A stretch of DNA of 64,000 nt, taken from positions 1,736,001 through 1,800,000 of the forward strand of contig NZ_CP048433.1 of NCBI RefSeq assembly GCF_010509075.1. Reading direction: 5' to 3'. Made by a program: the position numbers and the translations under genes. Origin of the DNA: Collinsella aerofaciens ATCC 25986 (GTDB taxonomy: Bacteria > Actinomycetota > Coriobacteriia > Coriobacteriales > Coriobacteriaceae). Shown here in pieces: positions 13,293-55,330 of the stretch; position 1 is the stretch's first letter, and every line of letters starts with the position of its first letter. The notes beneath the pieces were generated by a model. It saw nothing but the letters and a program-made list of their open reading frames with translations, was not told the origin of the DNA and did no database searches.

Positions 13293-13373
13293 CCAGAACA
13301 TGTACGTCACCCTCCAAAAACGACATTTTCCGACATCTTTGGAGGCTGACGTACATGTTTGGATTGAGCTCAC
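13293..13373. repeat. Left inverted repeat of the DUF559-like unit (internally palindromic)
   Basis: Bases 13293-13362 form a palindrome with arms AACATGTACGTCA (13297-13309) and TGACGTACATGTT, whose central part pairs less well. The copy extends to ATTGAGCTCAC at 13363-13373. In reverse complement it matches 14484-14563 with four substitutions and one indel over about 80 bases. Confidence 0.88.
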
Positions 13374-14483: not shown

Positions 14484-14563
14484 GTGAGCTCAATCCAAAC
14501 GTGTACGTCAGCCTCCAAAGATGTCGAAAAATGTCGTTTTTTGAGGCTGACGTACATGTTTGG
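14484..14563. repeat. Right inverted repeat of the DUF559-like unit (internally palindromic)
   Basis: It begins GTGAGCTCAATCC and contains a palindrome at 14495-14563 with arms around GTACGTCAGCCTC/GAGGCTGACGTAC. It is the inverted near-copy of 13293-13373. The gene stop lies 10 bases before it. Confidence 0.88.
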
Positions 14564-25214: not shown

Positions 25215-26654
25215 ATGGCGAACAACCATACCGCGGGCGCTGCCGCCCGCACCTTCGCGCCCAGCGAGCTTTGCCAGCGTATGCTGGCCAAAACCAGCAA
25301 GGGCACCTGCGGTCCCTGCATCCTGTATCTTGAGGATGGGACCATTTTTTATGGACGTGCATGCGGCGCCGAGGGCACCGCGACCGGCGAAGTCTGCTTC
25401 AACACCTCACTCGAGGGCTACTTTGAGGTCATGACCGACCCGAGTTATGCCGGCCAAATCGTAACCATGACCTATCCGCAGATCGGCAACTACGGTATCG
25501 ACGAGACCGACGTCCAGTCGGCCTTCCCCGGCGACGCCGTGCGCCCTGCGAGCGCTCCGGCTATGCGCGGCATGATCGTTCGCGACATGTGCACCACGCC
25601 TTCTAACTGGCGCTCGGCCGTCAGCGTGCCGGAGTATCTGCGCGCCCACGGCATCGTCGCTATCGAGGGCGTCGACACCCGCGCTCTGGTGCGCCATCTG
25701 CGCGACAATGGTTCCAAGATGGGCATTATCTCGACCGAGATCTTCGACGTCGACGAGCTTGCCGAGCGTCTGGCCGCAGCGCCCACGCTGGTAGGCGAGA
25801 ACCTGGTCAAGACCGTAAGTTGCCCCGCGCCTCATGAGTTTGTGGCTGCCGACCTGCCTGCCACGCATGACTTTGCGCTTTCGGCTGCCGCTCCTGCCCG
25901 TCACAAAGTGGTCGCCTACGACTGCGGTGTGAAGCGCGGCATTCTGGAGGGGCTGGTCCGCGCCGGCTGCGACCTTACCGTCGTGCCGTGGGACACGCCC
26001 GCGAGTGAGGTGCTCGACATGAATCCCGACGGCGTCTTTTTGTCCAATGGCCCCGGCGACCCCGACGCCGTGGTGGAGACCTACGAGCAGGTGCAGCAGC
26101 TGATCGGCAAGGTGCCGGTCTTTGGTATTTGTCTTGGTCACCAGATGATCAGCCTGGCCTGCGGCGCCCAGATGGAAAAGCTTAAGTTCGGTCACCGCGG
26201 TGGCAACCAGCCGGTTATGAACCTGGTAAGCCGCCGTGTGGAGATCACCGCGCAAAACCATGGCTTTGGCCTGCTGTTCCCCAGCTTGGGCAAGCTTGTC
26301 CCCGAGCTTTCCGGCGGCGAGACCGAGCATGCGGCCGATGGAGATCTGCGCGTCTGGGTGCGCCGCGGAATCGCGCCGGTCGTGATGAACGAGCGCTTTG
26401 GCCGCATTCGCCTAACACATGTGAACCTCAACGACGGCACCGCCGAGGGCATCCAGCTGCTCGACGCCCCGTGCTTCTCGGTCCAGTATCACCCCGAGGC
26501 CTCGCCTGGCCCCACCGATGCCCACTATCTCTTTACCGCCTTTACGCGACTCATGGACGGCGAGGAGAACTACCTGGACATCGACACCGCGAAGGACCGC
26601 CTGGCTGGCTGGAACTTTGCCGAGACCGCCGCGACCGAGACCGAGGAGAACTAA
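25215..26654 (+). CDS. carA: Carbamoyl-phosphate synthase small subunit
   Basis: Glutaminase subunit supplying ammonia to CarB. The nucleophile Cys lies in [10 protein letters not shown] and the His/Glu in [13 protein letters not shown]; the N-terminal dimer domain has [21 protein letters not shown]. At about 479 residues it is some 100 longer than E. coli CarA: about 35 extra at the N-terminus and an insertion of about 35 between QNHGFGL and [12 protein letters not shown], rich in charged residues. ATG 25215 follows AAGGAG in the PyrR-type leader. carB starts one base after its stop. Confidence 0.95.
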
Positions 26655-26655
26655 C

Positions 26656-29600
26656 ATGCCGAAACGTACTGACATCAAGCGTATCCTCGTTATTGGTTCG
26701 GGCCCCATCGTTATTGGCCAGGCCTGCGAGTTCGACTACTCCGGCGCCCAGGCCTGCAAGGTGCTCAAGGAGGATGGCTTTGAGGTCATCCTGGTCAATT
26801 CCAACCCGGCGACCATCATGACCGACCCGGGCTTGGCCGACCGCACCTATGTTGAGCCTATCACCGCCGAGTTTATCGAGCGCGTGATCAAGAAAGAGCG
26901 TCCGGACGCGCTGCTGCCCACGCTGGGCGGCCAGACCGGTCTGAACGCCGCCGTCGAGCTGGCGAAAGACGGCACGCTCGACAAGTACGGCGTCGAGATG
27001 ATCGGCTGCGACCTGGCCGCCATCGAGCGCGGCGAGGACCGCAAGCTCTTTAACGAGGCCATGGCCGAGATTGGCCTGGAGGTCGCGCGCTCGGGCTATG
27101 CCTACAGCGTGGCCGACGCCGAGGCTATCGCCGAGCGCGTGGGCTATCCCTGCGTACTGCGCCCGAGCTTTACCCTCGGCGGCGCCGGCGGCGGCATCGC
27201 GCATGCTCACGAGGAGCTCGTCTCCATCGTGAGCCAGGGCCTGGAGCTCTCGCCTGCCCACGAGGTGCTGGTCGAGGAGTCCATCGAGGGTTGGAAAGAG
27301 TACGAGATGGAGGTCATGCGTGACCACGCCGGCAACGGCATCATCGTGTGCTCCATCGAGAACCTCGACCCCATGGGCGTGCATACCGGCGACTCCATCA
27401 CCGTGGCGCCGGCGCAGACGCTCTCCGACCTGGAGTATCAGCGCATGCGTGTCGCGTCGCTCGCCATCTTGGAGAAGATTGGCGTCGAGACCGGCGGCTC
27501 CAACGTGCAGTTTGCCGTGAACCCCCAGACCGGTCGCTTGATCGTCATCGAGATGAACCCGCGCGTGAGCCGTTCGTCCGCGCTGGCCTCCAAGGCCACG
27601 GGTTTCCCCATCGCTAAGGCCGCCGCGCGCCTGGCTGTGGGCTACACGCTCGACGAGATCGTCAACGACATTACCAAGGCAACGCCTGCCTGCTTTGAGC
27701 CCACGATTGACTACTGCGTTGTCAAGGTGCCGCGCTTTGCCTTCGAGAAGTTCAAGGGTACCGACCCCACGCTCACCACGCGCATGAAGGCAGTGGGCGA
27801 GATTATGGCGATTGGCCGCACCTTTGAGGAGGCCTTCGGCAAAGCCATGCGCTCGCTGGAGGACGGTCACCAGGGTATCTGCGCCGGTGGCAAGGAGGGT
27901 GCCGATAAGCTGAGCGACGACGAGCTCGCTCAAGCCGTGGCCACGCCGACCGAGCACCGCATCTTCTTTGTGGTCGAGGCCCTGCGCCGTGGCTGGGACA
28001 TCGCTCGCATCCATGCCACCTGCGGCATCGACCCGTGGTACCTCAACCGCATCAACGACATGGTGCAGGTCCAGGAGAGCATCCGCGGCCTGCGTGTGGA
28101 GGATATCGACGCCGACGCGATGCGCCTGCTCAAGCAGTACGGCACGAGCGACGCCGAGATCGCCGCGCTGACCGGCTCGGACGAGCGCTTTGTGCGCGCC
28201 TATCGCAAGGGTCTGGGCGTGGTTCCCAGCATGAAGACGGTCGATACCTGCGCTGCGGAGTTCTCGAGCGCCACGGAGTACCACTACAAGACGTACGAGA
28301 ACATCTACCGCACGAGTCCGGATGCCAAGAAGTGCGTGGCTCCCGACGAGACCACGCCGGCGGACAAGCCCAAGGCGATGATCCTGGGCGCCGGCCCCAA
28401 CCGTATTGGCCAGGGCATCGAGTTCGATTACTGCTGCGTGCATGCGAGCTATGCGCTGGCGGCCCGCGGCTTTGAGACCATCATGGTCAACTGCAATCCC
28501 GAGACCGTCTCGACCGACTACGACACGTCCGACCGCCTGTACTTTGAGCCGCTCACCTACGAGGACGTTATGGACGTTATCGACGTTGAGCGCCCCGATG
28601 GCGTCGTGGTGACGCTTGGCGGCCAGACCCCGCTTAAGCTGGCGCGCATGCTCGAGGAGAGCGGCGTGAACATCATGGGCACCAAGCCCGATGCCATCGA
28701 CTTTGCCGAGGACCGCGAGCGCTTTGCCGCCCTGCTCGACAAGCTGGGCATCATGTACCCGCCGGCGGGTCAGGCCACCTCGTTTGAGGAGGCCGAGGCC
28801 GTTGCCGCACACATTGGCTACCCGCTGCTGGTACGTCCGAGCTACGTGCTGGGCGGCCGCGGCATGATGATCGCCTACGATGCCGAGCACCTGCGCGATT
28901 ACATGGCCGAGGCCGCGCGCATTAGCCCCGACTACCCGGTGTACCTGGACCGCTTCCTGGAGGGTGCGATCGAGTCCGATGTCGACGCCCTGTGCGATGG
29001 CGAAGAGGTCTACATTGGCGGCATTCTGGAGCATATCGAGGAGGCCGGTATTCACTCTGGCGACTCCGCGACCTGCATCCCGCCGTTCAGCTTTAGCGAG
29101 AGCCTGCAGGCAAAGCTTCGCGAGACCACGCGCCGCATCGCGATGGCGCTGGGCGTACGCGGCCTGGTCAATGTGCAGTATGCCATCAAGGGCGAGACCG
29201 TCTACGTGATCGAGGCAAACCCGCGCGCGAGCCGCACCGTGCCGTTTATCTCCAAGGCCACCGGCGTGCCGCTGGCCAAGTGCGCGGCGCGTATCATGGC
29301 AGGCGATTCCATCGCGAGCCTGGGCCTGCCGAGCGACGAGCGCCAGCTGGACTGGTTCTGCATGAAGGAAGCCGTTATGCCCTGGGGTCGTTTCCCCGGT
29401 GCCGACGTTATCCTGGGGCCCGAGATGAAGTCGACGGGCGAGGTCATGGGTATCGCCAAGAGCTATCCCGAGGCATACGCCAAGACGCAGCTGGCGATTG
29501 ACTACAAGCTGCCCGACCCGAGCGCCGGCAAGGTGTTCATCAGCGTGTGCGACCGCGACAAGCGTCATATCCTTTCGGTCGCTCGCATCCTGCGCTACCT

Positions 29601-29970
29601 GGGCTTTGATATCTGCTCCACCGAGGGTACGGCGCGCGTTCTGCGTGGAGGCAACGTGACGTGCGAGGTCGTGGAGAAGATCAGCGGCCCGCACGACGGC
29701 GAGCGTCCCAATATCGGCGACCTGATCGCCGATGGCAAGATTGCGGTAATCATCAACACACCGTACGGCCCGGGTTCGCGTGGCGACGGCTATCTGTTGC
29801 GTACCGAGGCGGTGCGCCGCGGCGTGACCTGCGTGACCGCGATGTCTGCCGCCAACACGTACGTGAGTGCTATCGAGGCCGTGCGCGAGGACCAGCAGGG
29901 CCACGGCAGTGCCAACGACATGGGCATGGACGTCATCGCCCTGCAGGACCTGCCGCAGCACACGGTTTAG
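26656..29970 (+). CDS. carB: Carbamoyl-phosphate synthase large subunit
   Basis: Makes carbamoyl phosphate from bicarbonate, ammonia and two ATP for pyrimidine and arginine synthesis. 1104 residues with two homologous ATP-grasp halves: [20 protein letters not shown] at the start of the first and [18 protein letters not shown] at the start of the second, plus the C-terminal MGS-like regulatory domain ([20 protein letters not shown]). ATG 26656 is chosen over the open upstream frame because it is the family start and couples to the carA stop. Confidence 0.96.
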
Positions 29971-29985: not shown

Positions 29986-30070
29986 CGGGGCGGGAGGGGC
30001 CGAGATTTCCCCCTTTCGCTCCGGCTGCAAGCAGAGTCGCTCAGGAGGAAACTCGGCCCCTCTCGCCCCG
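29986..30070. repeat. Long intergenic hairpin D (conserved loop on minus strand)
   Basis: Arms at 29986-30010 and 30047-30070 pair over about 24 bp with one wobble and one bulged A. Read on the minus strand the 36-base loop contains GCGACTCTGCTTGCAGCCGG followed by AGCGA, close to the loop of hairpin B at 35448. It begins 15 bases after carB and has no T run, so a terminator role is doubtful. Confidence 0.82.
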
Positions 30071-30156: not shown

Positions 30157-30194
30157 TAATGGCATATTACGTCATATGACGTAATATGCCATTA
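30157..30194. promoter_or_regulatory. 38-bp perfect palindrome upstream of the PTS operon, candidate operator
   Basis: Bases 30157-30175 are the exact reverse complement of 30176-30194, with no spacer; the centre reads GTCATATGAC. It is A+T-rich, unlike the G+C-rich hairpins nearby, and ends 45 bases before the EIIB start, where a repressor would act. The GntR/UTRA regulator at 32348 is the natural candidate binder; this is inference. Confidence 0.6.
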
Positions 30195-30239
30195 GCAGTC
30201 AAGGATGATTGTCTGTGTTCAAGTCGAGAAAGGGGCAAA

Positions 30240-30716
30240 ATGATTAAACTGTGTCGCGTCGATAGCCGGTTAGTGCATGGGCAGACCGTGTTCTCTTGGT
30301 ATCCAACGCTTGAAGCAAACGCTATTCTTGTGGTTTCAGATGAGTACGCCGCAAGCAAAGAGCGAATTCAAGCGCTGCGAATTGCAAAACCCGCTGATGC
30401 CAAATTGGTTGTCAAAAGTGTAGAAGATTCCATCGTGGCCCTTAACGGAAGCGCGGTGGATAAATACGAGCTAATTGTTGTTGCGGGAAATGTACATGAC
30501 GCCTGTGAAGTTGCGCGTGCGTGTCCAAAAATAACGTCTGTGAATTTAGGCGGCGCTCGACCGTTGGGGGACAGCGTAAAGGAGCTTGGCCCTGCTGTGC
30601 GCCTTTCCCAATCCGATATTAATGAAATTAAGAAAGCCATGGCTGATGGAATCGAGTTCGAGGTAAGGCAGGTTGCTAGCGAGAAAAAACGCATCGTAAC
30701 AAGTTTTGATTTGTAG
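30240..30716 (+). CDS. PTS system mannose/sorbose-family EIIB component
   Basis: A 158-residue EIIB that carries phosphate from EIIA to the sugar. The phosphorylated histidine is His13 in MIKLCRVDSRLVHGQ, the standard motif of the mannose family. ATG 30240 follows AAAGGGG; an upstream open extension has no similarity. IIC and IID follow in the same direction, but no EIIA gene is nearby. Base composition is visibly lower in G+C than the purine genes, suggesting later acquisition. Confidence 0.92.
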   Translation: MIKLCRVDSRLVHGQTVFSWYPTLEANAILVVSDEYAASKERIQALRIAKPADAKLVVKSVEDSIVALNGSAVDKYELIVVAGNVHDACEVARACPKITSVNLGGARPLGDSVKELGPAVRLSQSDINEIKKAMADGIEFEVRQVASEKKRIVTSFDL

Positions 30717-30730
30717 GAAGAGGGAGAAAT

Positions 30731-31507
30731 ATGCTGCTTCAGGCTTTTCTGGTTGGTCTTGCCGCTGCGATAGGTCAATCGGATTATTTACTCGGTACTG
30801 CGATGGTCGAGCGGCCGATTGTCCTCGGAGCGATCGTCGGTATTTTTTTGGGTGATATTCCGACTGGCGTTATTGTTGGTTTCCAGCTCGAACTCGCGTT
30901 CATGGGGGTCTGGCAGGTTGGTGCTGCCGTGCCGCCCAACGTAATTGTTGGTTCAGTTTTGGGAACAGCCTTTGCGATTACTATGGGTGCGGGTCCCGAG
31001 ACCGCTCTGACTATTGCTATGCCCACTGCGGTGCTTGCCGGCATGTTTGACAGCCTTATGTATAGCGTTGTTACGCCTCCTATGGCTGTCTGGGCTGATC
31101 GTGGTGCCGAAAAAGACGACCCCAAAACGATTGCAGCCGCTATGTGGACCAATGGAATTCTCTACATCATTGCGCTTGGCTTGATTTGCGGCGTGGCTTT
31201 TTACGTTGGAAATGATGCTGTTCAGGCACTGATTGACGCCATTCCTGATTGGCTTACGAATGGGCTTACGATCGCAACGGGTATTCTGCCCGCGCTTGGA
31301 TTTGCGCAGCTTATGTCAATCCTGTCCACCAAGGAGCTGAGCTTCCTATTCTTTGGAGGCTTCTTGCTGAGTGCCTATCTAAACATTCCGACGATCGGTA
31401 TCGTGGCGTTTTCGCTGATCCTGATTGGGATTCTCAATATGGCTCACATTTTTATGCCTGCCAGTGCGGCGGTCGCTAAGGAGGTTGACGATGACAACGA
31501 ATTCTAA
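30731..31507 (+). CDS. PTS system mannose/sorbose-family EIIC component
   Basis: A 258-residue polytopic membrane protein, one half of the sugar channel. Typical features are the N-terminal GLAAAIGQSDYLLGT and the Gly/Pro-rich loop IVGFQLELAFMGVWQVGAAVPPN. About six to eight membrane segments are visible. ATG 30731 follows AGAGGGAGA. Its end overlaps the IID start by 17 bases. Confidence 0.92.
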   Translation: MLLQAFLVGLAAAIGQSDYLLGTAMVERPIVLGAIVGIFLGDIPTGVIVGFQLELAFMGVWQVGAAVPPNVIVGSVLGTAFAITMGAGPETALTIAMPTAVLAGMFDSLMYSVVTPPMAVWADRGAEKDDPKTIAAAMWTNGILYIIALGLICGVAFYVGNDAVQALIDAIPDWLTNGLTIATGILPALGFAQLMSILSTKELSFLFFGGFLLSAYLNIPTIGIVAFSLILIGILNMAHIFMPASAAVAKEVDDDNEF

Positions 31508-32351
31508 TGATGTTCTTGAGCTCTCGCCGGAGTCAAATAAATCGACCGATAAGAGAATAACCAAGAAAGACTTAAAGGCGTTATTTTGGCGCAGCTTTCC
31601 ACTCAACATCATGTGGAGCTTTGACCGACAAATGAACGTTGGTTTCTGCTACGACATGATTCCGGTAATCAAGCGGTTATACGATAAGCCTGAAGACCGG
31701 ATCGAGGCATATAAGCGTCATCTTGAGTTCTACAATATTCAAGTTACGTTTAATCCTCTGGTCGCCGGCATTGTGGCCTCCATGGAGGAGGAAAACGCCA
31801 ACAATCAGGACTTTGACACCGCCTCAATTAACGCCATGAAAGCATCGCTTATGGCTCCGCTTTCCGGTATTGGAGATTCACTGATTGCCAGTACGCTTCG
31901 CATGATTGCGACGGGCGTTGTGACAGGACTTTGCCTTTCGGGCAGTCTGCTCGGCCCAATCCTGTTCCTGCTTCTTTATAATGTCCCAACGATCCTGATC
32001 CGCTGGTTTGGGCTTCAGTATGGTTATTCGCTTGGCAGTGGCATGATTTCGAAGCTGAACGATTCTGATGTAATGCACAAAGTTACGTCCGGCCTGGCGA
32101 TTGTGGGACTAATGGTAGTTGGTGGAATGGTGGCGACCACCGTTGCAGTTACCACTCCGCTCGCTCTTAACTTCGGCGACACCGCGTTTAAGTTGCAGGA
32201 AACGCTCGATGGGATATTCCCGGCTCTTTTGCCGCTCTGCGCGTTCGGGATCATGTGTCTTTGCAATAAGAAACAGGTCAAAATTATTTGGCAGATTGTG
32301 GGCATTCTCGCTGCGGGTATTGTGCTCGGCGTCCTGGGGATTTTGGGCTAG
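31491..32351 (+). CDS. PTS system mannose/sorbose-family EIID component
   Basis: A 286-residue EIID, the second membrane subunit. Family marks are LFWRSFPLNIMWSFDRQMNVGF, MEEENAN and the GIGDSLI segment. ATG 31491 (MTTNSNDVLELS) lies inside the IIC gene with AGGAGG just upstream, implying translational coupling. The stop overlaps the convergent GntR gene by four bases. The substrate cannot be read from sequence; the set could be for mannose, fructose, sorbose or an amino sugar. Confidence 0.92.
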   Translation: MTTNSNDVLELSPESNKSTDKRITKKDLKALFWRSFPLNIMWSFDRQMNVGFCYDMIPVIKRLYDKPEDRIEAYKRHLEFYNIQVTFNPLVAGIVASMEEENANNQDFDTASINAMKASLMAPLSGIGDSLIASTLRMIATGVVTGLCLSGSLLGPILFLLLYNVPTILIRWFGLQYGYSLGSGMISKLNDSDVMHKVTSGLAIVGLMVVGGMVATTVAVTTPLALNFGDTAFKLQETLDGIFPALLPLCAFGIMCLCNKKQVKIIWQIVGILAAGIVLGVLGILG

Positions 32352-33103
32352 AGAAGGCGTCCATCTTTTGAGATGCTGAACTCGAAGGACGATGCGTCTG
32401 CTCGCCAAACGGTTTTCGAATAGTGGAGCGGCATTTCATTGCAGGCATATGTGACGTGCTCGACAACGCTCACGGGGGCTCCAACGATATAACCGAGAAG
32501 GTTTGCTTCTTGGAGCCCCGCTATTCCTGCGGTGATTTTGAGTTTCTCAATACCGGTTGCGATGCTGTAATGGTTGGCGATCAGGTCGAAAAGACTGGCA
32601 TTGTCTGTGAGAAGCTCCAGTAGTCCGGGTAGAGTGCCCTGCGTTGCATAAATGGTGTCGATGGCGCAGGGGGCATTTTCGATATAAACCAAGCGCGCAA
32701 CTCGTTGCACTACGGTTCCGTTGTCAATTTTGAGCTCCCGTGCAATGTGGGCATCAGCCTTGATCAAGCCTGTTTCCAAGATGGACTTGGTTGTTTTATC
32801 GCCGTATTGGGGGTCGGAGCTCAAATTGAAAATGGTGCTTGTTCCTCGTTTCAGGGTGAGCTTCGATGGGTTTACGAATGTCCCCTTGCCTCGCAGGCGG
32901 TAGAGCAAGTTTTGGTCAATGAGATTCTGTACGGCGCGTCTTACGGTGATCCTGCTTACTTTGTATTGCTTGCAAAGCTCGGTTTCGGTGGGAATCTGAC
33001 TGCCGCCGGGGAGTTCGCCAGAAACTATTTTCTTGAGGATATCGTTTTCAACGGTCTGATAGAGAAGCTCTGGCTGAGTGAGCTCGTCTTTTGCTGCAGG
33101 CAT
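32348..33103 (-). CDS. GntR-family regulator with UTRA domain
   Basis: A 251-residue HutC/FarR-type regulator. The N-terminal winged helix is typical: ILKKIVSGELPGGSQIPTE, TELCKQYKVSRITVRRAV and LYRLRGKGTFV. The C-terminal UTRA ligand domain normally binds a sugar phosphate or related molecule. ATG 33103 follows AAGGGG on the minus strand. It faces the PTS genes tail to tail and is divergent from the esterase, so it probably controls one or both. Confidence 0.9.
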   Translation of the reverse strand: MPAAKDELTQPELLYQTVENDILKKIVSGELPGGSQIPTETELCKQYKVSRITVRRAVQNLIDQNLLYRLRGKGTFVNPSKLTLKRGTSTIFNLSSDPQYGDKTTKSILETGLIKADAHIARELKIDNGTVVQRVARLVYIENAPCAIDTIYATQGTLPGLLELLTDNASLFDLIANHYSIATGIEKLKITAGIAGLQEANLLGYIVGAPVSVVEHVTYACNEMPLHYSKTVWRADASSFEFSISKDGRLL

Positions 33104-33227
33104 GGTGGACCCCTTGGTCTTCAGTTTCTTTAGTACATAGATATACGACAACTGAGGACATCATAAGCCGTTATCTCAAAAGTTATGGAAATATCGATTT
33201 GGCGTTATCGCCGAGAGGGGATTTAAG

Positions 33228-34295
33228 ATGGGCAGACAATACGACGAGGCGTTGATTGGCGCCATCTCCGGTCGCTCGTTTATAACCGAGAAGAGGGGAC
33301 TCGAGGTTCAAATTCGTCCGGTTCCTGATGATGAAAGAGAGCATGTGCTTGACCCGCGAATTCTCGAGGTATCCCGCAAGAAGATGCGGAATGTTAGCAT
33401 GTCTCCGAGCTGGACGAGCCTTATTGGAATGCGTCATCGCCCGGATAAGCCGACATACCGCCTACTCGATGGTGAGGTTCAGCGCGATGAGGTCCTCATG
33501 GAGGCAGCCGATCGCTATATAGATTTATTCGTCTGGACGCCACCAAATCATAAGGAGGCAAGTCCAGCGCTAGTTTACCTGCATGGCGGCGCGTTTATGG
33601 CGGGGAATGTTCTGCAATTTGAACATCAGCTCGAGTTCATCGCCGAAAAGTCTGGTGCAGTGGTGGTTTATCCGGAATACCGCTTGGCGCCGGAGACGGC
33701 ATTTCCCGGGCAGATCGAGGATTGCGTTCTTGCTCTTGATTATGTGCGTGAGCATGCCGGGGATCTCGGAATCGATCCTCATAAAATAATGGTCGCCGGC
33801 GACTCTGCGGGAGGAAGCCTTACTAATGCGTGTGTTCAGCTCAGGGGTGCTGGAGCTGTAGCCCATGCCTTCGAAATCTATCCTGAAGTCGACCTTGCGG
33901 GCGAACAGGGCGAGGGATATGAGGATTTTCCTGCGATAGCCGATCAAGAGGACGTTGCGCGTTTTCGCATCGACCATCTTCGCGATTCGGACGGCCCGAT
34001 GGTCGAACTTTGTGCACACGGAAAAATGTCTCCTCATGACCCGTTGATTTCTGCGCTAATGCTTGAGGACTGCACTGATTTCCCCCCGGTGACTATCGTG
34101 ACATCCGAATACGATCCGCTTCGTATCCCCGATGAAAAATGGGCTACAAAATTACGGTCTTCAGGAATCGATGTCGAGGTCATCGAATATGCCGGATGTG
34201 ACCATGGTTTCTTCGATCATTTTGGCGTGTACCCGCAATCGGAAGACGTGTGTTTGTTGATGGCTGAGAAGCTTAAAGAAATGGCTGTACAATAA
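33228..34295 (+). CDS. Alpha/beta hydrolase, hormone-sensitive-lipase-type esterase
   Basis: A 355-residue cytoplasmic esterase of the HSL (family IV) type. The oxyanion motif HGGAF is at about residue 119, the nucleophile is Ser193 in AGDSAGGS, the acid is the Asp of TSEYDPLRIPDE and the His is in GCDHGFFDHF. No signal peptide is seen. A deacetylase or carboxylesterase acting on the substrate of the neighbouring PTS is plausible but inferred from context only. Confidence 0.85.
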   Translation: MGRQYDEALIGAISGRSFITEKRGLEVQIRPVPDDEREHVLDPRILEVSRKKMRNVSMSPSWTSLIGMRHRPDKPTYRLLDGEVQRDEVLMEAADRYIDLFVWTPPNHKEASPALVYLHGGAFMAGNVLQFEHQLEFIAEKSGAVVVYPEYRLAPETAFPGQIEDCVLALDYVREHAGDLGIDPHKIMVAGDSAGGSLTNACVQLRGAGAVAHAFEIYPEVDLAGEQGEGYEDFPAIADQEDVARFRIDHLRDSDGPMVELCAHGKMSPHDPLISALMLEDCTDFPPVTIVTSEYDPLRIPDEKWATKLRSSGIDVEVIEYAGCDHGFFDHFGVYPQSEDVCLLMAEKLKEMAVQ

Positions 34296-34371
34296 CGTCT
34301 CTCGGCGATAAGGGACTGAAGTCGCCTGTGTTTCTGCATTCGTGGTTCTCAGTCTGATTAAAAATGAGGCT

Positions 34372-34412
34372 TGCTCCTTGCCCGAGTGGGTGGGGAGCAG
34401 TTTGTTTTTTGT
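34372..34412 (+). terminator. Terminator after the esterase gene
   Basis: TGCTCC at 34372-34377 pairs with GGAGCA at 34394-34399 around a 16-base loop, then TTTGTTTTTT. The rest of the 330-base gap to the antitoxin gene holds no supported gene. Confidence 0.7.
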
Positions 34413-34588
34413 AGCGATACGAGGTGAGTGCCGCGCACTTTAGATCGCCATTTTGCTTCGCTGTATACCACTTGACGTAATAAAAGAGGCAAGGGCGGTG
34501 CGAGGGCCAACAGTCATTCTAAGCTCGGATTCGTATCCTAAAAGGTTGTTTCGGTTGCGTGGTACAATATAGCAAAAAAGAATGATAA

Positions 34589-34616
34589 AATGAATTCGAA
34601 AAAGAATTCATTTTTA
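34589..34616. promoter_or_regulatory. Candidate operator of the toxin-antitoxin operon
   Basis: The inverted repeat AAATGAATTC / GAATTCATTT around GAAAAA lies between a TACAAT box (34563-34568) and the antitoxin start. Toxin-antitoxin pairs usually repress themselves through such a site. Confidence 0.6.
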
Positions 34617-34626
34617 GGAGGTATGT

Positions 34627-34947
34627 ATGCCTGCTTTGCAGATGCTCGACAACCTTGTTCCAATTAGCGATTTCAGCCACGGTAAGGGCTCGGCTGCATT
34701 TTCGAAGGTTGGGGACGACAATCCAGTTGTGGTTCTCAAACACAACAAGCCAGCGTTTGTGATTGTGACACCCGATGAATATAGGGAAGCGAAGCAAGCG
34801 GAGGAGGACCTCGCCTTGTTAACGTTGGCACTTAAGAGAGTGGCTGTGGCACGTGACGATGCGCTTGTTTCCCTGTCTGATGTTATGGAAGAGCTGGGTG
34901 TGAGCCAGGACGAACTCGATCAGATGGATGAGGTCGAGTTTGAATGA
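34627..34947 (+). CDS. Antitoxin, Phd/YefM-like
   Basis: A 106-residue protein; ATG 34627 follows TAGGAGG. The N-terminal half has the Phd/YefM look (MLDNLVPISDFSHGKGSAAF, then NPVVVLKHNKPAFVIVTPDEY), expected to dimerise and bind DNA. The acidic C-terminal half (SQDELDQMDEVEFE) would wrap the toxin. It overlaps the toxin gene by four bases (ATGA), the classic arrangement. Confidence 0.85.
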   Translation: MPALQMLDNLVPISDFSHGKGSAAFSKVGDDNPVVVLKHNKPAFVIVTPDEYREAKQAEEDLALLTLALKRVAVARDDALVSLSDVMEELGVSQDELDQMDEVEFE

Positions 34948-35294
34948 GTGGGTACGAAGTCGCTTTCTACCCGGATGCTCTCAAGGATATTAAGCGTCTG
35001 GACGGCTCCCAACGAAAGATCGTCCTTAAGGCTATAGAAAAAATCAGAACGAACCCATTGCCGCAGAACGAAGGTGGATTCGGCAAGCCTCTTGGAAACA
35101 AGGCAGGTACGGATTTGACTGGCTTTATGAAAATCAAGCTCAGGGGAAGTGGCATTCGAATCGTGTACCGCCTCATCAGAATTAAAGAAAAGATGGCCAT
35201 CGTAGTGGTAGGCGCTCGCGAAGACATGGAAGTCTACCGAACTGCTCAGAGACGAGAACTCGATTTCGAGAAATGGGCGGAAGAGAATATCTAG
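34944..35294 (+). CDS. Toxin, RelE/ParE superfamily
   Basis: A 116-residue basic protein with the RelE/ParE fold pattern: YEVAFYPDALKDIKRLDGSQ, KPLGNKAGTDLTGFMKIKL, then SGIRIVYRLI and VVVGAREDMEVYRTAQRR. Whether it is a ribosome-dependent RNase (RelE) or a gyrase poison (ParE) cannot be decided; the arginines and C-terminal residues fit RelE slightly better. A strong terminator follows. Confidence 0.85.
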   Translation: MSGYEVAFYPDALKDIKRLDGSQRKIVLKAIEKIRTNPLPQNEGGFGKPLGNKAGTDLTGFMKIKLRGSGIRIVYRLIRIKEKMAIVVVGAREDMEVYRTAQRRELDFEKWAEENI

Positions 35295-35360: not shown

Positions 35361-35447
35361 GCTGAACCAATTGCCTTCAGTCTCCGTTGACCTTTCCTTC
35401 CAATTCATCAGCCAACGTACGTCATGGCAATTCCCGGTAGGTCGCAG

Positions 35448-35535
35448 GGCGCTTCGCGGGCGGGCCAGGCTTTATCTGAACGACTTTGCGAAGCAACCGG
35501 AGTGAAGATAAAGCCTGGCCCGCCCGCGAAGCGCC
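35448..35535. repeat. Long intergenic hairpin B (30-bp perfect arms, conserved loop)
   Basis: Arms at 35448-35477 and 35506-35535 are perfect 30-base reverse complements. The 28-base loop contains CGACTTTGCGAAGCAACCGG followed by AGTGA, shared with hairpin C at 54238 and, on the other strand, hairpin D at 29986. The stem sequence is unrelated to theirs. A complete terminator already lies 90 bases upstream. Confidence 0.9.
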
Positions 35536-35630
35536 ACAAAGACCGCAGGGACGGGAGCAGCTATACTACTCTCAGTAGTTAAGGGTCGCGGATCCGCCGC
35601 GTCGCCGTTCTCAACAGGAGGTCTTTGTTT

Positions 35631-36095
35631 ATGGCAGATCAAAAGCCGGTTGTCGGGATCATCATGGGTTCCAAGTCCGACCTGGGCGTTATGGAAGGTT
35701 GCACCGCCGAGCTCGAGGCGCTGGGCGTGCCCTATGAGCTTGTCATTGCGAGCGCACACCGCACACCGGCGAAGGTCCACGAGTGGGCTTCGACTGCCGC
35801 CGATCGCGGTATCAAAGTGATTATCGCCGCCGCCGGCAAGGCCGCTCACCTGGGTGGTGTCGTGGCTGCCTTTACGCCGCTGCCGGTCATCGGCGTGCCT
35901 ATGAAGACGAGTGACCTGGGCGGCATGGATTCGCTGCTGTCGATGGTGCAGATGCCTTCGGGCGTGCCCGTGGCCTGCGTTGCCATCAACGGCGCCAAGA
36001 ACGCCGCCATCTACGCCACGCAGATTCTGGGCGCTTGCGACCCCGAGTACCGCAAGGTTATCGAGAAGATGAAGCAGGAGATGGCCGACGCCTAG
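35631..36095 (+). CDS. purE: N5-carboxyaminoimidazole ribonucleotide mutase
   Basis: A 154-residue PurE: MGSKSDLGVMEGC at the N-terminus and the active-site ASAHRTPAKV. The length and motif fit class I PurE, which needs PurK; purK is not in the window. ATG 35631 is preferred over ATG 35625 because CAGGAGG is better spaced. A TATACT box at 35562 is the likely -10. The sortase gene follows 35 bases later. Confidence 0.94.
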   Translation: MADQKPVVGIIMGSKSDLGVMEGCTAELEALGVPYELVIASAHRTPAKVHEWASTAADRGIKVIIAAAGKAAHLGGVVAAFTPLPVIGVPMKTSDLGGMDSLLSMVQMPSGVPVACVAINGAKNAAIYATQILGACDPEYRKVIEKMKQEMADA

Positions 36096-53450: not shown

Positions 53451-53493
53451 TAAAACCTGCCAAAATAAACCTGTCCCTAAATGATAGGTTTTA
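53451..53493. repeat. GGGACAGG repeat element starting at the pth stop codon
   Basis: On the minus strand it begins with the pth TAA and matches the element at 40865 in 41 of 43 bases. Arms are TAAAACCTATCA and TGGCAGGTTTTA around TTTAGGGACAGGTTTATTT. Confidence 0.88.
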
Positions 53494-54120
53494 GTGCTTG
53501 CCGTTGGCGGAGGCGGCGCCGTTGACATGGTCGCGGGCGTAGACCACGCCGTGCACGATCGCCAGGCCGGCGGCGTCGGCCGCGCGGGCGCAGGTGTCCT
53601 GGAAATCCTCGGCCTCGCGGGCGCGCAGCTGCTTAAGCACGTAGTCGGCGACGGCCATCTTACCGGGAGGGTTGCCGATGCCGGTGCGGATGCGGCTGAA
53701 GTCGCGGCTGCCCATCTTGTCGATGATGGAGCGCAGGCCGTTGTGACCGGCATGGCCTCCGCCCACCTTGACGCGCACGTCACCGGCGGGAATGTCGAGC
53801 TCGTCGTGGATCACGAGCAGTTCCTCGGCCTTGATCTTGTACTCGCGGCAGAGCTTGGAGATGGGGCCGCCCGAGGTATTCATGTACGACTGCGGCTTGA
53901 CCAGCACAATCTGACGCTTGCCGCCCTCTTCCTCGGGGTCGTTGATGTTGATGAGCGCGACCTCGGCGCCGGCCTGGTTTTTCCAGTACGTGACGCCGGC
54001 CTGACGGGCCAGCTCGTCGATTGCCTTAAAACCGGCGTTGTGGCGGGTCTCGGCATATTCCTCGCCCGGGTTGCCAAGCCCGGCAACCATGCGAATCTTA
54101 AGCGGCTGTGCAGCTGCCAT
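53491..54120 (-). CDS. pth: Peptidyl-tRNA hydrolase
   Basis: A 209-residue Pth that frees tRNA from stalled peptides. Motifs are MVAGLGNPGEEYAETRHNAG with the catalytic His, QSYMNTSGGPI and VIHDELDIPAGDVRVKVGGG with the catalytic Asp. ATG 54120 follows AAAGGAAG; the upstream extension to 54159 is not needed. Its stop lies inside a GGGACAGG repeat. The order prs-pth is conserved in many Gram-positive bacteria. Confidence 0.95.
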   Translation of the reverse strand: MAAAQPLKIRMVAGLGNPGEEYAETRHNAGFKAIDELARQAGVTYWKNQAGAEVALININDPEEEGGKRQIVLVKPQSYMNTSGGPISKLCREYKIKAEELLVIHDELDIPAGDVRVKVGGGHAGHNGLRSIIDKMGSRDFSRIRTGIGNPPGKMAVADYVLKQLRAREAEDFQDTCARAADAAGLAIVHGVVYARDHVNGAASANGKH

Positions 54121-54237
54121 ATGCTTCCTTTCGTTACACAAAAGTTTAATCAACGACAAAGGCTACCACGCCCGCCGAAGGCGAGGCTTTGCTTCAGCGA
54201 AATCCCACCAGACAAAAGCGCGGCCGCGGCAGAGCGA

Positions 54238-54315
54238 GCCGTCGGAACAGAAGAAACCCCCGCGCGACCTTTGCGAAGCAAGGGGGAGCGCGGGGGTTTC
54301 TTCTGTTCCGACGGC
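54238..54315. repeat. Long intergenic hairpin C (28-bp perfect arms, conserved loop)
   Basis: Arms at 54238-54265 and 54288-54315 are perfect 28-base reverse complements. The 22-base loop reads GACCTTTGCGAAGCAAGGGG plus GA, and with the closing CGC bases gives CGACC..TGCGAAGCAA..GGAGCG, as in hairpin B at 35448. It sits between prs and pth, both minus-strand. The stem sequence is unlike that of B or D. Confidence 0.9.
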
Positions 54316-54343: not shown

Positions 54344-55330
54344 CTACAGCGCGAAGTCGCCGCCGACGAGCGTGGAGACGGGCTCCTCGTGGTAAACGGC
54401 GGAGATGGCCTGAGCGAACTCCTCGGCGACCGAGATGGTCTTGATCTTGCCGCCGACCTCGACGGGGATGGCGTCGGTGACGACGCACTCGACGATCGGG
54501 GCGTCGTTCAGGCGCTCGATGGCCGGACCGGAGAAGATGCCGTGGGTGGCGCAGACGTAGATGTCACCAGCGCCCATAGCCTTGAGCTCCTTGACGTTGG
54601 CGCACAGGGTGCCAGCGGTGTCGATCATGTCGTCGTTGATGACGCAGGTCTTGCCCTTGATGTCACCGATGATGCCCATGACCTCGGCGGCGTTGTGGCG
54701 CGGACGGCCCTTGTGGGCGATGGCCAGGTCGCAGCCGAGCATGTCGGACAGCTTCTTGGCGGCCTTGGCACGACCCACGTCGGGGGAGACGACAACCAGG
54801 TTGTCGGTGTCGAAGTGCATGTCGTTGTAGTACTGGCCAAACAGCGGCAGTGCGGACAGGTGGTTGACCGGGATATCAAAGAAGCCCTGGATCTGACCCT
54901 GGTGCAGGTCGAGGGTGATGATGCGGTCGACACCGGCGCGCTCGAGCAGGTTGGCGACGAGGCGGGCGGTGATGGGCTCGCGCGGGCCGGCCTTGCGGTC
55001 CTGGCGGGCATAGCCGTAGTGGGTGATAACGGCGGTGATGGAGCGGGCGGATGCGCGCTTGGCAGCGTCAGTGGCGATGAGCAGCTCCATGAGCATGTCG
55101 TTGACGTTGCCGCCGGCCACGGACTGAATCAGGAAGACGTCGGCGCCGCGGACGGTCTCGTCGTAGCGGGCGTAAATCTCACCGTTGGCGAACTGCTTTA
55201 GCGTAAGGCCCGAAAGCTCGACCCCAAGGTACTCAGCGATCTTCTGAGCGAGGGGACGGTTGGAGGAACCGGAATACACGCGGATGGACTTGCGCATATT
55301 CTCCGACTTCTCGGGATCATTAATCGGCAT
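54344..55330 (-). CDS. prs: Ribose-phosphate pyrophosphokinase (PRPP synthetase)
   Basis: A 328-residue PRPP synthetase feeding purine, pyrimidine, His and NAD synthesis. Class I features include SGSSNRPLAQKIAEYLGVEL, the ATP loop YARQDRKAGPREPITARLVA, DLHQGQIQGFF, and the PRPP-binding VINDDMIDTAGTL. ATG 55330 follows AGGAGAAGG. The first about 12 residues form a short extension. Confidence 0.96.
   Translation of the reverse strand: MPINDPEKSENMRKSIRVYSGSSNRPLAQKIAEYLGVELSGLTLKQFANGEIYARYDETVRGADVFLIQSVAGGNVNDMLMELLIATDAAKRASARSITAVITHYGYARQDRKAGPREPITARLVANLLERAGVDRIITLDLHQGQIQGFFDIPVNHLSALPLFGQYYNDMHFDTDNLVVVSPDVGRAKAAKKLSDMLGCDLAIAHKGRPRHNAAEVMGIIGDIKGKTCVINDDMIDTAGTLCANVKELKAMGAGDIYVCATHGIFSGPAIERLNDAPIVECVVTDAIPVEVGGKIKTISVAEEFAQAISAVYHEEPVSTLVGGDFAL

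Follow-up and report, generated by a model that had tools for sequence, protein, structure and literature searches.

What kind of element joins long, freely differing hairpin arms to a shared tip, and is it read as RNA or as DNA? The question is raised by a stretch of 64,000 nucleotides of Collinsella aerofaciens ATCC 25986 (contig NZ_CP048433.1, positions 1,736,001 to 1,800,000; here called the window), in which a first-pass annotation made from the letters alone had pointed to three hairpins, B, C and D, with unrelated stems and a common loop.

Three long hairpins in the window

The hairpins proved real, both by their long arms and by RNA folding z-scores between −5.6 and −13. When the window was scanned for long ungapped inverted repeats, the longest perfect arms were those of B (two arms of 30 bp with a 28-nt tip between them) and C (28 bp, enclosing 22 nt); D appeared with 22-bp arms containing mismatches and has an apex of 41 nt, most of which pairs further. 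The z-scores on the plus and minus strands were −11.0 and −11.1 for B, −13.0 and −11.5 for C and −5.6 and −6.6 for D, and in every case none of 200 shuffled sequences folded as well. The shared loop words are as first quoted, with D read on the minus strand, and within the window the long form CGAC..TGC..GCA..GGAG matches only at B, C and D. The tip of C is the most divergent and carries Watson-Crick pairs in place of the outer G·A step. The compensated pair noticed in the inner loop was found again, being C-G in eight and U-A in six of 14 distinct rows. Positions are collected in Table 1.

Table 1. Hairpins, their tips and feet, and neighbouring genes in the window
Feature	Position	Strand	Remark
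Hairpin B, carB-purE region, upstream of purE	35448..35535	+	motif on + strand; perfect 30-bp arms
Tip of B, GAACGAC..GGAGTGA, inner hairpin TTGC-GAA-GCAA	35478..35505	+	
Left foot of B, GTAGGTCGCAG	35437..35447	+	kept across strains, arm varies
Right foot of B, GACCGCAGGGACGGG	35541..35555	+	kept across strains
Hairpin D, starting 16 nt past the stop of carB	29986..30070	-	motif antisense to carB
Tip of D, GAGCGAC..GGAGCGA, inner hairpin CTGC-TT-GCAG	30016..30042	-	
Hairpin C, in the gap separating prs from pth, two minus-strand genes	54238..54315	+	motif antisense to prs
Tip of C	54266..54287	+	
carB (carbamoyl-phosphate synthase large chain)	26518..29970	+	ORF coordinates, start provisional
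purE (AIR carboxylase)	35625..36095	+	likely start ATG at 35631
prs (ribose-phosphate pyrophosphokinase)	54344..55330	-	
pth (peptidyl-tRNA hydrolase)	53491..54159	-	
Variable gene block between D and B	30186..35294		sorbose-type PTS IIB and IIC, GntR/UTRA regulator, other ORFs

The gene block between D and B is replaced or missing in other strains. The interval is a variable cargo site (compared in L096, L097, L098, L100, L101 and L152) that elsewhere holds about 0.25 kb or, in some strains, PTS genes, and in others a 2136-aa protein with glycosyl hydrolase 31 and F5/8-type domains. Upstream of B, positions 34627–35294 contain a pair of small ORFs that we take to resemble a RelBE-type toxin-antitoxin; the second of them had no Pfam match. 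Two further hairpins of the window (13297–13359 and 14495–14563) have loops that are mutual reverse complements (AACGACATTTTCCGACATC and its inverse) and lie about 1.2 kb apart, as if bracketing an insertion.

Core, stems and distribution of the family

We aligned 16 clear members (alignment A2) and derived a covariance model, R1, from them. Over all 18 drawn pairs A2 is 94.4% paired, and 13 of the 18 pairs change on both sides, with 55 two-sided, 2 one-sided and 14 unpaired cells. Its invariant columns read GARCGAC..GGAGYGA, which suggests two G·A/A·G steps separated by a covarying R-Y and a C-G pair; the non-Watson-Crick positions of this core read G·A and A·G on the motif strand, and a small hairpin of variable sequence closes it. 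The clearest case is a set of nine elements (alignment A3) associated with S10, PNPase, PTA and PYC in G114 and G382, two genomes of another genus of the same family, probably Enorma, with tips after rpsJ, pnp, pta and pyc. In A3 the outer and the apical helix both vary, whereas GCGATTCCGCAGC and GCGAGGACCAGCGA, which lie between them, do not change: 98.9% of 261 cells are paired (46 two-sided, no one-sided and 3 unpaired changes; none of 500 shuffles as high), and compensatory changes occur at 17 of 29 pairs. The two alignments together contain 101 two-sided Watson-Crick, 2 one-sided and 17 unpaired changed cells. Covariation exceeds shuffles and slid controls in both A2 (13/18) and A3 (17/29), a result that does not separate RNA from DNA. 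Stem mismatches on the motif strand comprise 36 G-T and 50 A-C in 63 related, non-independent stems, so that clear wobble tolerance is not apparent on either RNA strand.

Contrary to what had been stated at first, the stems are not wholly unrelated. Over 17 elements a consensus is recognisable in the inner 12 nt, those adjoining the tip (identity 0.527 against 0.329 after shuffling, reached by none of 500 shuffles), but not in the next 12 nt (0.346 against 0.342, 156/500). In ten elements of the metagenome-assembled genome (MAG) RUG13402 (G301, Coriobacteriaceae) both the inner stretch (0.381 against 0.270) and the outer one (0.470 against 0.340) exceed the shuffled values; therefore the outer stems of this MAG are also somewhat alike. 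The architecture is a freely varying outer stem, a common inner 12 bp and a G·A-rich core.

A strict loop pattern matched in 34 of 43 genomes of the genus, a count that includes chance coding matches and in which a control pattern also scored in some genomes. R1 gave 53 matches at E ≤ 1.2e-11 in 22 of the 43, and any match at E 0.1 in 25. By their flanks all 53 lie either in the carB-purE region (D- or B-type) or at S2, a site 3′ of a DUF47/PhoU-like gene and beside a nitroreductase. The first-pass annotation had looked to dozens of hits with variable stems as support for a family; within the genus the strong matches come from two intergenic regions and not from dozens of independent sites. 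C, at prs, is a weaker, further place of the family: the filter that left 53 matches missed it, and a search of its own genome caught it (E 9.8e-6); the other weaker matches there lie after a P-type ATPase gene, after a rubrerythrin gene and after the next ORF. In a search of 309 kb B scored 71.1 bits (E 2.6e-17); D reached 62.0 bits and C 34.8 bits (E 1.2e-6), B and D being part of the training set and C lying outside it. Across the class, R1 matched at E 0.01 in 5 of 124 genera (296 genomes); two of these five, in G068 and G239, were weak, had no long-hairpin fold and are probably chance. A loose pattern only gave noise in the own genome (76 forward and 75 reverse matches against 64 and 47 for the control; in a second count 7/19 against 5/11). 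Bare core words were not enriched beside purE in 65 loci of other genera, and with a stem score ≥ 10 they gave three matches (control mean 0.75, maximum 4), two of which are known MAG copies.

Related tips were found further afield. On 29 sources R1 gave 20 matches, of which three are those of the window and the rest account for 17 of 21 elements with other tip types; L323, L332, L194 and the second element in L384 escaped it, and nine purE loci of other species gave no match. A second model, R2, built from A3 only and hence solely from another genus, found the S2 element (E 3e-4), D (22.3 bits, E 0.035), the rubrerythrin tip (0.014), L331 (6e-5) and L146 (6e-7), with tips of a third genus among its matches; B, C, L003, L323 and L332 were missed. 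Other Collinsella tips follow the ATPase and rubrerythrin genes, and tips of types T4 and T5 occur in 17 of the 43 genomes, two matches probably being due to chance. RUG13402 contains 15 tips (in L317 and L323–L337) within three mismatches of one 23-nt word, ten of them exact (control: 0); their stems differ, and some form tandem arrays of half-hairpins. In these arrays the last copy alone retains both arms. The same MAG has a second hairpin family with the shared flanks GAGCGCC..GGCGCACCAT.TTC..CACG, which adjoins several copies of the 23-nt tip. Another tip family, AAGTTCGCGAAGCCCACTT, is present in up to three copies per genome (L356, L344, L355, L350), in what we take to be an AEC-type transporter region; its mid-stems vary between strains with pairing kept, AACTT..AGTT against AAGTT..ACTT being a compensated pair.

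The existence of a family of structured elements is well supported, and so is the proposed conserved tip on a freely varying, compensated stem. Both G114 and G382 have the element at the ends of rpsJ, pnp and pyc, the stem differing between them in the latter two, and the end of pta bears it in G036 and G382. Since the same gene ends are occupied in related species, the elements look vertically inherited rather than mobile. With regard to carriage by phages, three exact tip patterns had no match in viral contigs.

Variation and probable copying of the arms

Twelve distinct sequences of the B site differ by 22% in the left arm, 26% in the right arm, 6% in the tip and 8% and 3% in the flanks. 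The strain variants gathered under the label REARRANGEMENTS (L245, L244, L249, L253, L081, L023, L069, L008) are of several kinds. L245 has the tip of B inverted between unchanged arms. L244 combines the flanks of the B site with another stem and tip (T4), and L249 and L253 are without a hairpin there; in L081 the left flank is copied to the right side in inverted form. L023 and L069 are hybrids that join the left side of B to the outer flank found beside D, and L008 contains a tandem pair of S2 hairpins. At the D site the same outer stem bears a T1 or a T4 tip, and one strain has a deletion. As the assemblies are drafts, single strain cases may be assembly errors.

The first-pass annotation had also considered a process that copies a flank into an inverted repeat. 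Copying between the arms is likely, because the changes are two-sided and hardly ever pass through a G·U state, and because the tip of L245 is inverted; for the making of a new inverted repeat from a flank, on the other hand, no pair of filled and empty sites with clean borders was found. These two-sided changes and the inverted tip suggest that the arms are kept matched by template switching: during replication one arm would be copied into the other, largely keeping the perfect match, and inverted tips, half-copies and hybrids may have arisen in the same way. This would agree with PMC8794818 and PMC8604942, where template switching is predicted to yield double-sided stem changes and spacer inversion. 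The elements resemble RNA hairpins made in this manner in both respects and differ from them in that the process accounts for the arms, not for the conserved core or the position.

Insertion of a mobile tip into ready-made palindromes was also considered, because at the D site one and the same outer stem encloses either T1 or T4. We rejected it: the mid-stem varies at other sites, and no clean empty site was found.

Gene ends, termination and the molecule that may be read

Position was surveyed for 33 elements (34 rows, of which one is a repeat), with no more than two taken from any place. For 27 of them a Pfam-supported gene on the opposite strand ends 44–145 nt from the centre of the tip; from the Pfam matches we take these genes to include groEL, pnp, rpsJ, pta, gyrA, gyrB, glnA, htpG, carB and prs. 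The impression from the window that orientation relative to genes varies therefore does not hold in general: most motifs, C and D among them, are antisense to the gene whose end they adjoin, and B, which is in sense with both of its neighbours, is an exception. The others are L390 and L378 (in sense, upstream of proS and of an aminotransferase, respectively), L382 and the second L140 element (each beside an ORF without a Pfam match, the former at the ortholog of the S10 place) and L326, the first of a tandem pair. Among 20 ORFs on the sense side, used as a control, two had Pfam matches. In L386 a biotin ligase gene in sense ends 54 nt from the tip, nearer than the opposite-strand gene, and in L381 an acetate kinase gene in sense ends 201 nt from it. 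In L384 (1485–1799) two divergent family elements lie between leuA and the next ORF. The further element of L384 has the sense orientation and precedes by about 35 nt an ORF that starts MPRPMTVAEK and is presumably LeuC-like. This pair and that of D and B between carB and purE therefore point to a common divergent pair arrangement.

A cis-regulatory RNA, such as a riboswitch or attenuator for nucleotide genes, is suggested by the window, where the copies adjoin carB, purE and prs. Elsewhere, however, copies follow unrelated housekeeping genes (groEL, pnp, rpsJ, gyrA, gyrB, pta, rubrerythrin), most are 3′ and antisense, and in L245 B is inverted relative to purE with identical arms. We rejected a nucleotide-gene riboswitch on the unrelated genes that other copies follow, and hold the cis-regulatory reading in general to be very improbable.

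In Collinsella and some other Coriobacteriaceae the elements thus stand mostly in the terminator slot past a stop codon. As the first-pass annotation noted, plain termination at a T run does not describe them: none of B, C and D is followed by one. A T-run terminator-like site lies within 200 nt of 8 of 29 elements, and equally of 8 of 29 in the reverse-strand control. At the 3′ end of prs, 30 loci comprise 7 with a C-type and 4 with a type-2 hairpin (11 with a family hairpin in all), 11 that lack a long hairpin and have a strong T-run terminator 29–35 nt past the stop, and 8 mixed, more distant loci, one of which (L212) has another long hairpin and no T run. A T-run site is also found at all four type-2 loci, about 127 nt past the stop; with the equal reverse-strand control, this indicates that the hairpin need not be the terminator. 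Separate T-rich hairpins follow further downstream at carB in some strains and, as a strong one, at rubrerythrin.

The hairpins could still be ordinary strong terminators, in which selection or template switching keeps the stems perfect, while common descent and exchange between sites by recombination would be the only reason for the shared tips. The terminator slot itself would fit this, as would a short GCGTTT tail directly after the hairpin in seven of the nine G114/G382 elements and the presence, where T1 would otherwise stand, of hairpins with a different tip (T4 in L244, L247 and L251). The missing T run at B, C and D speaks against it, however, as do the small change of the B-site tips relative to their arms and the core of the nine A3 elements, invariant between two varying helices; we consider this reading distinctly unlikely. 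Like intrinsic terminators, the elements are GC-rich hairpins a few tens of nucleotides past a stop codon (just after it in 27 of 33), and strains have either a family hairpin or a T-run terminator at prs. Unlike them, they have a very long perfect stem and a conserved tip, and the direct T run is absent.

The element may instead act as DNA: the template strand of the neighbouring gene, on which the motif lies, would form a single-stranded hairpin or a cruciform and be seen by a nuclease, recombinase or transposase, in the manner of attC sites or REP elements. Such a role would suit the Watson-Crick pairing with hardly any G·U intermediates (2 one-sided against 101 two-sided cells), the wobble without strand bias, the restriction of the G·A-rich core to the motif strand, the polarity relative to genes in 27 of 33 elements, and the inverted tip, tandem and hybrid copies. 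Related species have the element at matching gene ends (rpsJ, pnp and pyc in G114/G382, pta in G036/G382), and three tip patterns are absent from viral contigs; both points speak against it, and we regard it as rather unlikely. Integron attC sites stand 3′ of genes, take their structured form on the strand opposite the gene and have stems of free sequence. The elements share these three properties, but they accompany housekeeping genes at fixed places, and no cassette array was seen.

REPs, which bear GTAG or CGTC tags and are associated with RAYT, are described as palindromes of 20–40 bp that usually occur in more than 100 copies per genome. As described in PMC3733652 they resemble our elements as intergenic palindromes with complementary stem changes and loop sequences shared between families. 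Also, in 17 of 22 elements the word G[CT]A[AG] is present, at no fixed position, in the 30 nt that precede the inner stem on its 5′ side (about one third expected by estimate), which recalls the REP tag GTAG/GYAG described there and may favour DNA. In contrast to REPs, the hairpins measure about 75–125 nt, outside the REP size range, a single tip type reaches at most 15 copies per genome (0–6 per tip pattern in other genomes), a G·A-rich core lies between two helices, and the same gene ends are occupied across species.

With regard to known RNAs, the Collinsella-1 motif (RF01700) is described in PMC2864571 as a candidate structured RNA of the same bacterial group. At the Rfam gathering threshold, with RF01700 assumed to be in the set, the window yielded only five tRNAs and left the hairpins unmatched, and L002, L003 and L005 gave no match; down to E 1–5 the stretches searched had far-sub-threshold matches on hairpins, nearly all to animal microRNA precursors. 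In the open-access literature, which was the scope of our search, we found neither a description of the elements nor a map of transcript ends for Coriobacteriaceae.

The explanation we tentatively favour, with somewhat less than even confidence, is a structured 3′-end element in the terminator slot, with a recognised core and arms matched largely by template switching. Judging from conservation, a factor would read the apical core, and the position suggests a role at the 3′ end; the long stem may serve as roadblock, terminator or end-protector, in which pairing would matter and sequence would not. Because of the terminator slot we lean slightly towards RNA rather than DNA as the molecule read. 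A bolder version, which we hold as a doubtful possibility, is a folded DNA or RNA element, specific to one strand, by which the ends of highly expressed genes of Coriobacteriaceae would be marked and which would form a new class instead of a variant terminator: its core, a G·A-rich internal loop between two helices of unconstrained sequence, would be read by a dedicated factor, its tips would be species-specific dialects, and its template-switched arms would keep their pairing without selection on sequence.

Should a factor read the core, the Coriobacteriaceae, common gut anaerobes, would possess a new means by which transcripts or DNA are ended, protected or marked at housekeeping genes. The hairpins are furthermore a natural experiment for template switching, since place, flanks and tip stay the same while the arms are newly paired between close strains and a tip inversion was caught once. 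It thereby becomes possible to test directly how perfect pairing is maintained in long stems, an old question.
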